From positions 2,852,001-2,916,000 of the forward strand of contig NZ_JBGKAD010000001.1 in the NCBI RefSeq assembly GCF_041361345.1: a stretch of DNA of 64,000 nucleotides, in the 5' to 3' direction. Made by a program: the position numbers and the translations under genes. The notes below the pieces were generated by a model. That model worked only from the letters and a program-made list of their open reading frames with translations. It did no database searches and was not told where the DNA came from. Shown piece by piece: positions 56,203-58,829 of this stretch. Numbering within the stretch: the first letter of the stretch is position 1; each line of letters begins with the position of its first letter. The stretch is from Halobaculum sp. MBLA0147 (GTDB lineage: Archaea > Halobacteriota > Halobacteria > Halobacteriales > Haloferacaceae).

Positions 56203-57129
56203 CTACTCCGCGGCGTCGGTCATCTGGTCGTACTGGTCGGCGAGCTTCTCGGCGGCGTCGTCCAACAGCTCCGTCTCGTAGTCGGCGAGGTCCCACTCGA
56301 CGACCTCCTCGACGCCGTCGCTACCCAGCTTCAGCGGGACGCCGACGGCGGTGTCCTCGTAGCCGTACTCCCCGTCGAGCGGGATCGAGCCAGGCAACAC
56401 CTCGCCCGTGTCCCGCAGGACGGCCTCGACCATGTGGGCGACACCCGTCGCCGGGCCCCACTGCGTGGCGCCCTTCCGCTCGATCACGTCCATCGCGGAC
56501 TGCTGGAGGTCGCTCAGGATCTCCTCGCGCTCGTCGGCGTCGAACGTCGGGTCCGCCCCGTCGACGCGCACCTTCGAGAAGACGGGCGCCTGCGCGTCGC
56601 CGTGCTCGCCGAGGATCGTCGCCTCGACGTTCTGGACGGGCACGTCGAACCGCTCGGACAGTACGTACCGGAAGCGGGCGGAGTCGAGTCGCCCGCCGAA
56701 GCCGATCACCTTCTCGCGGGCTCGCTCACCCGTCTCGTAGAGGTGGCGGTTGAGCAGGTCCACCGGGTTCGAGGTGGTGATCGACACGAAGTCGTCGTTG
56801 TGCTCGCGCAGCGACGCGCCGATGTCCTCCATGATCGGCGCGTTGTCGCCCGCCAGATCGATCCGCGTCTGGCCGGGCTGGCGCGGGATCCCCGCCGTGA
56901 TCACGACCACGTCCGAGCCGGCGGTGTCGGCGTACGTCCCCTGCCGGACCGTCGTGTTCGAGTCGTACGCGACGCCGTGGTTGGTGTCGGCCGCCTGCCC
57001 GACCGTCTCGTCTTCCTTGTCGGGAATGTCCACGAAGACCAGTTCGTCCACTACGTCGCGCAGCGCCAGGTTGTAGCCGGCCGCGGCGCCCACGGTGCCC
57101 GCCGCGCCGACGATGCTCACTTTCGTCAT
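56203..57129 (-). CDS. mdh: Malate dehydrogenase (LDH-like type)
   Basis: 308 residues, typical of haloarchaeal MalDH. NAD site G-A-A-G-T-V-G-A at 8-15; mobile loop with substrate-selecting arginines [10 protein letters not shown]; catalytic His in I-L-G-E-H-G-D-A-Q, and D-S-A-R-F-R. It oxidises malate to oxaloacetate in the citric acid cycle. Acidic surface residues are many. TATA-like cgcttacc (minus strand, about 57156-57163) lies about 30 nt upstream. Monocistronic. Confidence 0.95.
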
Positions 57130-57309: not shown

Positions 57310-57663
57310 ATGTCCGACGGAGACGATCACACGAACAGACGGAACGTGCTGAAGGCAGTCGGCGTCGGGGCGGCCAGCGGCGCGGGGCTCGCGAGCGCCG
57401 CGAGCGCGGTCTCCCCCGACGCGGTCGAAGGTCCGGCGGTGGACGGCGAGGTCGTCGCCGAGCGGGAGTCGACCGAGCCCGACCGCGTGGTCGCCGACCT
57501 CTCGGCGGTCGCCCAGAGCTGTTCGGACTGTACGACGGAGTACAAGTGCGACTCGCCGGCCTGTGCGGACTACGACCAGTCGCTGTACGAGCGCGAGTGT
57601 TGCCAGTGTGGCGGCGGCGACATCTGTGGCGAGTGGCAGTTGACGAGTCGCTGCTGCTTCTGA
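57310..57663 (+). CDS. Small Tat-exported protein with ten C-terminal cysteines
   Basis: 117 residues. N-terminal [16 protein letters not shown] is a Tat signal ending near A-S-A-V-S. A polar spacer of about 35 residues follows (D-G-E-V-V-A-E-R-E-S-T-E-P). The last about 45 residues contain ten cysteines: C-S-D-C, K-C, A-C, E-C-C-Q-C, I-C and R-C-C-F at the end, enough for five disulfides or a metal site. The plan (Tat signal, pro-region, Cys-rich end) is like that of microhalocins such as halocin C8, but I see no sequence identity with it. No rSAM, protease or transporter gene is adjacent. Function unknown. Confidence 0.65.
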   Translation: MSDGDDHTNRRNVLKAVGVGAASGAGLASAASAVSPDAVEGPAVDGEVVAERESTEPDRVVADLSAVAQSCSDCTTEYKCDSPACADYDQSLYERECCQCGGGDICGEWQLTSRCCF

Positions 57664-57701
57664 CCCGGCACGCGGGCGTCCGGGTCGTTCGGAGTGTCAC
57701 A

Positions 57702-57790
57702 CGCACCGTGTCGCGGTCTCCCCCTGGGAACGTCGACCGCACCGCGTCGCGGTCTCCCCGGGAACGTCGACCGCACCGCGTCGCCGGCCG
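57702..57790. repeat. 34-36-bp tandem repeat after the cysteine-rich gene
   Basis: cgcaccg-gtcgcggtctcccc occurs at 57702 and 57738, with a third start at 57772; the spacing (36 then 34) differs by a two-base indel. It lies between two convergent gene ends (cysteine-rich protein and SDR). Confidence 0.8.
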
Positions 57791-57796
57791 ACCGCC

Positions 57797-58633
57797 TCAC
57801 TGGGTGTAGGTCAGTCCGCCGTCGGCGACCAGTTCTGCCCCCGTCACGAACGAGGCGAGGTCGCTGGCGAGGAACACCGCGGGATCGGCGATCTCGCGGG
57901 GGTCGCCGTACCGCGACAGCGGCGTCGCCGCCTCCAGGGCCGCCAGTGCCTCGTCGTCGCCGAGGATCGGCACGTCCTCGCGGACGAGCTCCGTGTCGAT
58001 CAGCCCCGGGAGGATCGAGTTGACGCGGATCTCCGGCCCGAGTCGATCCGCGAGCGCGAACGTGAGCTGTCGCAACGCGCCGCGGGTCGCCCCGTAGACG
58101 GGTCGCGGTCCGGTCCCGGCCAGAGCCTCGACGCTGGAGACGTTGAGGATACACCCGGTGTCCATCTCCGCGGCGGCCGTCCGCGCCGCGTAGAGACACC
58201 CCTTCACGTTCACGTCGAAGAACCGGTCGACGATCTCGCGGTCCGCGTCGTAGTCGTCCAGTCGAGCGACGGCGGCGTTGTTGACGAGCACGTCCAACCC
58301 GTCGGCGGCTGCGGTCTCGATCACCGCGGCGACCTCGTCCGGCGCTGCCACGTCACACTCGACGTAGGTCGCCTCGGCGTCCGTCTCGCGCTCGATCACC
58401 TCGTCGGTGGGCGTCCCGCCGCCACGTGGCGTCCGACGCACGTCCGCCAGCACCGTGTCTGCGCCGTGGCGGGCGAACTGGATCGCGATCTCGCGACCGA
58501 TGCCACTGGCACCACCGGTGACGACTGCCGTCTTCCCCGCCAGGAGGCCGGTCCACTGCGCCGCTCCTCCGTCCGTGCGCTCTGGCGCGCCCGATTCCAC
58601 TCTCCTCTCCCCGTCCTCGTCACTAGTCGACAC
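57797..58633 (-). CDS. SDR family oxidoreductase with catalytic Lys replaced by Arg
   Basis: 278 residues from GTG 58633. Classical [18 protein letters not shown](P) motif, C-D-V-A, L-V-N-N-A-A-V, N-V-S-S and a C-terminal [13 protein letters not shown]. The active site reads Y-G-A-T-R-G-A, so the YxxxK lysine is an arginine. This would weaken or abolish normal catalysis unless compensated. The first 35 residues are an acidic extension. TATA-like ataaattt (minus strand, 58655-58664) sets the start at 58633 instead of 58654. The substrate is unknown. Confidence 0.85.
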
Positions 58634-58829
58634 GCGATGCGTGAGGGGAGTCACAAATTTATGCTTTTCTCCAGCGACGACTGTCCGTGGGGGTCGGCCG
58701 GATCACCGTCGTCCGCCGTCCCGTCGGTACGAGGGCGGCGCGTCCGGCCGGCAGCACGGCCGGGGAGCGACGGCCGGTGCGGGCACCGAACCGGTGGAGT
58801 TTAGCGGTCGCCGGTCACTCACTCCGACG

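Follow-up and report, generated by a model that had tools for sequence, protein, structure and literature searches.

The gene described here lies in a 64,000-nucleotide stretch of the Halobaculum sp. MBLA0147 genome (the window, meaning the whole stretch analysed) and occupies a gap of its own, between the start of a malate dehydrogenase-like gene at 57129 and the end of a short-chain dehydrogenase gene at 57797, both on the minus strand (Table 1). Translation of the open reading frame on the plus strand (57310-57663) ends in SCSDCTTEYKCDSPACADYDQSLYERECCQCGGGDICGEWQLTSRCCF (37 letters of the protein are not shown). The original prediction had described a Tat signal, a polar pro-region, and a ten-cysteine end that includes C-C-Q-C and a terminal C-C-F, and the latter two were confirmed in the translation. 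The Tat signal was likewise supported: the protein has a twin-arginine motif (NRRNVLK), a hydrophobic stretch, and an A-x-A-like cleavage site, as is characteristic of Tat substrates, and it passed the NCBIfam TAT_signal_seq model (TIGR01409; 19.8 bits against a cut-off of 16.7), while scoring below the cut-off of the Pfam TAT_signal model.

Table 1. Features of the precursor gene and its surroundings in the window.
Feature	Position	Strand	Basis or remark
Malate dehydrogenase-like gene, divergent neighbour	56203..57129	-	Name from reading the sequence
Precursor gene, 117 residues, ATG start	57310..57663	+	Stop codon 57661-57663; ORF translation and homologues
Tat signal peptide, residues 1-33	57310..57408	+	RR at 57337-57342; NCBIfam TIGR01409 above cut-off; leader kept in intact relatives
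Acidic pro-region, residues 34-70 (37 residues), probably unstructured	57409..57519	+	Alignments; mostly low AF2 confidence
Cysteine-rich domain, residues 71-117 (47 residues)	57520..57660	+	Alignments; AF2; four predicted beta strands
Three imperfect direct repeats of ~34-36 bp (GGAACGTCGACCGCACCGCGTCGCGGTCTCCCC-like), directly 3′ of the gene	57691..57793		
Short-chain dehydrogenase gene, convergent neighbour	57797..58654	-	Name from reading the sequence; not conserved near other copies

Judged from the A-x-A motif, signal-peptide cleavage likely falls after residue 33, between ASA and V. The pro-region ends in DRVVADLSAVAQS, which alignments showed to be common to the window protein and its closest relatives, and all ten cysteines fall within the domain that follows, in the pattern C-x2-C-x2-E-x2-C-x4-C-x11-CC-x-C-x5-C-x2-W-x5-CC-F, a cysteine density of 21% over the last 47 residues. 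If a cysteine frequency of 0.8% is assumed, at least ten cysteines would occur in 117 residues by chance with p ~4e-8. Stronger grounds than this value came from comparison with 19 other copies, which have the same architecture and nearly always keep the framework, and on the evidence of these relatives the open reading frame is a real gene.

The family, with copies read one by one, comprised 20 members in 15 haloarchaeal genomes belonging to five families; these are 15 of 382 genomes of the order, and occurrence was very patchy even inside genera. Genomes are referred to by code numbers (G002, G008, and so on) and loci by L numbers. A whole-protein search of the order placed true relatives in G114, G002, and G008 amid many leader-only matches, and almost all of the 112 genomes matched by the first such search were Tat-leader matches, so that searches with the mature domain were used for judgement instead. 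Profile searches with the cysteine-rich C-terminal part, the region that the original prediction had singled out for searching, added G031, G171, G190, G130, G181, G118, G152, a second G114 locus, G082, G124, and G134. G082, G097, and a second G124 gene were found by reading the corresponding site in genomes that apparently had no copy. Weak matches in G358, G164, G077, G326, and G345 were read and discarded as wrong-frame or chance, and those in G055 and G185 are not among the copies read. A scan of named genomes returned a single matching record, the metagenome-assembled Halobacteriales archaeon QS_1_68_20 (contig PXRE01000001.1), which we took to be G008 contig 1.

Except in the most divergent copies, the framework C-x2-E-x2-C...R-x-C-C...C-x2-W...C(C) was kept, and an alignment of 14 copies had ten invariant columns (C, E, C, R, CC, C, W, CC). 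The departures were in G134, with six cysteines and a single one at the end; G097, which lacks the first CC at R-x-CC; and G124b, which lacks the tryptophan. Every intact copy had the Tat leader at its start and the cysteine domain at its end, the twin arginines being kept in intact relatives and replaced by KR in G097. The stretch between the two varied in length, from a few residues in G031 (short-type members have almost no pro-region) through ~30-45 in the window protein, G114a, G002, and G008, to ~120 in G181, G130, G114b, G082, and G124, and the long pro-region was conserved among the copies that have it. In related pairs for which it was computable, dN/dS in the mature domain was 0.05-0.32, and the pair G181 and G114b had 0.09 for the domain but 0.34 for the stretch before it; dS was saturated for several pairs, and the ratios come from few comparisons. 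On these sequence comparisons, purifying selection acts on the cysteine domain, which is the more constrained part of related copies relative to the upstream stretch.

Apart from the NCBIfam Tat-signal model, no family in Pfam, NCBIfam, PHROGs, or PDB sequences matched the window protein above threshold; the viral, plasmid, and phage sequences searched held no relative, and our literature search found no paper describing such a family. The best reading of these comparisons is that the protein belongs to a new, scattered haloarchaeal family, unnamed in the libraries searched. In G226 (L042 / L086), we also noted a protein of 381 residues, possibly with an export leader, in which a CWTETECRSGAEYTRECC segment is similar to one half of the cysteine domain; the ~280 residues that come after it have no Pfam match.

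Local duplication was seen in G124, with two neighbouring copies, and in G008, with three in tandem. Five of the 20 copies were broken at the 5′ end with the domain still reading well, a one-sidedness partly due to the searches, which pick up the 3′ end; individual errors of assembly may also play a part. The lesions were a leader frameshift in G118 and in G171, a 14-bp tandem duplication (TAGTAATTCCGATG) just upstream in G190 (L072), where the presumed start codon is out of frame with the peptide, the absence of any Tat motif in frame in G152, and, in G008 contig 1 (C1), a deletion accompanied by a change of frame. Turnover of this kind is in keeping with a gene that is dispensable and of local use.

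Each of the six relatives inspected had other genes beyond the start of the malate dehydrogenase-like gene. A search of the window's own family (170 genomes with that of the window) found no convincing copy in the other 169, the one weak match, in G358, being chance. This pattern of presence is consistent with acquisition by transfer or with losses elsewhere. In family f17, the peptide gene has a fixed chromosomal locus between ATP-pyrophosphatase-like and MutS-like genes, near TatC genes, and many f17 genomes had no recognisable copy there. At three f17 loci (L074, L076, L079), the peptide gene lay ~1-3 kb from TatC genes, which may be chance, and one f17 TatC gene near a peptide gene encodes a long protein (835 aa) with two TatC stretches. 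Outside f17, copies had no conserved gene for immunity, transport, or processing beside them. We considered conserved neighbours as candidates for immunity or processing and rejected them: only those in f17 were constant, and they were housekeeping-like (ATP-pyrophosphatase-like and MutS-like, with TatC nearby). The earlier remark that no obvious immunity gene is adjacent is true of the window and extends to the relatives.

The cysteines were confined to the domain in every copy and were even in number (6, 8, 10, or 12) in 19 of the 20, the exception being G031; the copies are related, and their parity does not amount to 20 independent trials. The original prediction had left disulfides and metal binding side by side. 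Disulfides are favoured over a metal cluster because the counts shift in steps of two, as disulfide partners do, and these paired changes, together with predicted export, make it a strong inference from the sequences that the cysteines are disulfide-bonded, with up to five bonds. The metal-binding half of that suggestion fared poorly. A zinc ribbon or metallothionein-like protein would account for the cysteine density, yet the paired changes, the Tat leader, the adjacent CC pairs, and the conserved Trp, Tyr, and Arg all tell against it, and the homology to a known zinc-ribbon family that would have signalled such a protein was found neither in Pfam nor among PDB sequences; we regard this alternative as quite improbable.

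In the case of the fold, AlphaFold2 (AF2), which had been put forward as a check, gave a confident small domain for residues 59-117 (pLDDT 83.4, pTM 0.59) with four strands, from a thin alignment of two rows (the window protein and L071) and with one of five models poor (37.7). A full-length model had the same strands, at residues 73-81, 91-100, 103-107, and 110-115, with low confidence over the signal and most of the pro-region that rose only next to the domain. We take the predicted small all-beta domain as support and not proof. Foldseek against the PDB returned, as its best match, a ribosomal protein without plausible relation (E 0.59), which also headed a VIA fold comparison (Z 5.1); no PDB fold was convincing and no fold family could be named. 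Domain GRAVY was -0.59 in the window protein and -1.44 to 0.01 across the 20 copies, and net charge was -2 to -8. Even cysteine counts, the predicted fold, and the conserved framework agree with the earlier proposal of a folded, disulfide-rich extracellular peptide, and we consider the window product very probably to be a Tat-exported, disulfide-bonded extracellular miniprotein, export itself being predicted.

The original prediction had likened the protein to microhalocins, and the family does share with halocin C8 a haloarchaeal Tat-exported precursor, a pro-region, a ten-cysteine C-terminal domain, and a patchy distribution. That characterised microhalocins are Tat-exported, as was claimed, stands for halocin C8 (PMC11509114), the only case documented here, and by sequence the candidate's size and leader would fit the microhalocin class (secreted, <10 kDa, inhibiting haloarchaea). 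Kinship with halocin C8, however, did not hold: hhalign gave the cysteine domain a probability of 0.2% against three genuine members, and the family HMM scored HalC8 no better than its shuffles (942 of 3000 reached the score). Halocin C8-like precursors have ~300 aa against 117 in the window protein, and a strongly hydrophobic domain of ~75 aa in which cysteines are single and spaced, without the CC pairs of the window domain. The described halocins are all reported to be hydrophobic (PMC11509114), whereas the window domain has the opposite hydropathy (-0.59 against +0.91 for HalC8 and +1.10). Homology to the long ProC8 pro-region (HalI) was also rejected, the window pro-region having 37 residues and the long-type relatives reaching only 1.0% probability. 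In spite of the shared leader, pro-region, and ten terminal cysteines, true membership in the halocin C8 family is therefore extremely unlikely. In Haloferax and Halobacterium plasmids (L068-L070), halocin C8-like genes were each followed by a small gene (207-693 bp), a putative immunity candidate.

Laterosporulins were the only disulfide-rich bacteriocins among the weak VIA matches. Laterosporulin and laterosporulin10 (PF17861, class IId defensin-like) are, like the window domain, disulfide-rich miniproteins of ~50 residues; they aligned weakly over 48 of 49 and 49 of 53 residues (Z 3.4 and 3.6, rmsd 3.2), and by eye they share DYxC-like and C-x3-W elements with the window protein (TDYQC/TEYKC, YC..EW/IC.EW). 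These Z scores, below 4, are tied with those of unrelated proteins and lie beneath that of the ribosomal protein, and the N-terminal cysteines are placed differently. Laterosporulins are moreover leaderless, six-cysteine, and bacterial, unlike the Tat-led, ten-cysteine haloarchaeal protein. Kinship was rejected at an hhalign probability of 0.2%, with no Pfam match (PF17861) and a family HMM score no better than that of shuffles (2066 of 3000 reached it). A laterosporulin-like fold is a weak structural hint from the model, and descent as a divergent homologue is very improbable. The HalC8 and laterosporulin query sequences were corroborated by database matches. The inhibitor cystine knot (knottin) order C-C-CC-C-C was exactly present in the six-cysteine G134, the smallest member, a match in cysteine order; the family's spacings are longer than those of knottins, other members have additional cysteines, and no sequence or fold match was found. 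A further haloarchaeal precursor that is secreted, the protease-activated HmHapP (HFX_0892) of Haloferax mediterranei, gives rise to an antagonistic fragment (PMC12893001). The active part of HmHapP is alpha-helical, the word cysteine is absent from the main text of the paper describing it (PMC12893001), and the window domain is predicted to be all-beta. By sequence, the haloarchaeal family matched none of halocin C8, laterosporulins, and actifensin.

We propose that the precursor would be exported via the Tat pathway, that the signal peptide would be removed after ASA, and that the acidic pro-region would probably be removed as well, processing that we infer with moderate confidence. The product would be a hydrophilic, acidic, all-beta miniprotein of ~45 residues with up to five disulfide bonds, acting outside the cell. 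Its most likely single use would be antagonism against other haloarchaea, bacteriocin-like and reached independently of halocin C8, and we propose this because the gene is small, secreted, patchy, locally duplicated, divergent, and often broken. Antagonism is a tentative assignment, the likeliest single function but weakly inferred, and the account as a whole, of an exported disulfide-locked miniprotein of a new family most likely used in antagonism, is plausible though somewhat short of probable. Against antagonism are the lack of an immunity gene; the scant pro-region of short-type members, which leaves almost nothing that could serve as built-in immunity, immunity to halocin C8 being said to lie in the pro-part (PMC11509114); and a domain that is acidic and hydrophilic, unlike the hydrophobic described halocins (PMC11509114). 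The fixed f17 locus would suit an established accessory gene no less than a weapon.

Instead of a weapon, the protein may be an inhibitor or a binding protein that acts outside the cell and, for instance, protects against secreted proteases of the halolysin type. Inhibitors commonly take the form of small hydrophilic domains that are exported and locked by disulfides. Such a role would work without an immunity gene, extracellular proteases are secreted by many haloarchaea (PMC12893001), and cystatins were among the weak fold matches; these matches were partial and weak (Z 3.4-3.7; 39-45 of about 80 residues) and may reflect nothing more than a shared arrangement of beta strands. We could point to no exposed loop that is conserved, and no protease gene was seen travelling with the family; we regard this role as rather unlikely. 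More unlikely still is a secreted signal or adhesion peptide acting between cells of the same lineage: export, small size, divergence among lineages, and the fixed f17 locus would fit, but no co-occurring gene for a receptor or regulator was seen, and the distribution is very patchy within genera. Returning to antagonism, the broader proposal that the family is a new, independently evolved archaeal class of antagonistic peptides (acidic, hydrophilic, all-beta, disulfide-locked, and Tat-exported, without a dedicated immunity gene and with pro-regions swapped round a conserved cysteine core) is more speculative than antagonism itself, and we hold it to be possible but unlikely.

Secreted disulfide-rich miniproteins are an established kind, with bacterial and eukaryotic cases such as laterosporulins and actifensins (PMC6989792) and with halocin C8 as a cysteine-rich archaeal one; the haloarchaeal family itself is unnamed in the libraries searched. 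Most halocins have yet to be sequenced in full, and the best molecular description is that of halocin C8 (PMC11509114). The family offers concrete, easily synthesised candidates for antagonism, protease inhibition, or signalling, and its study would also bear on the way in which haloarchaea form multi-disulfide proteins once Tat export has taken place.
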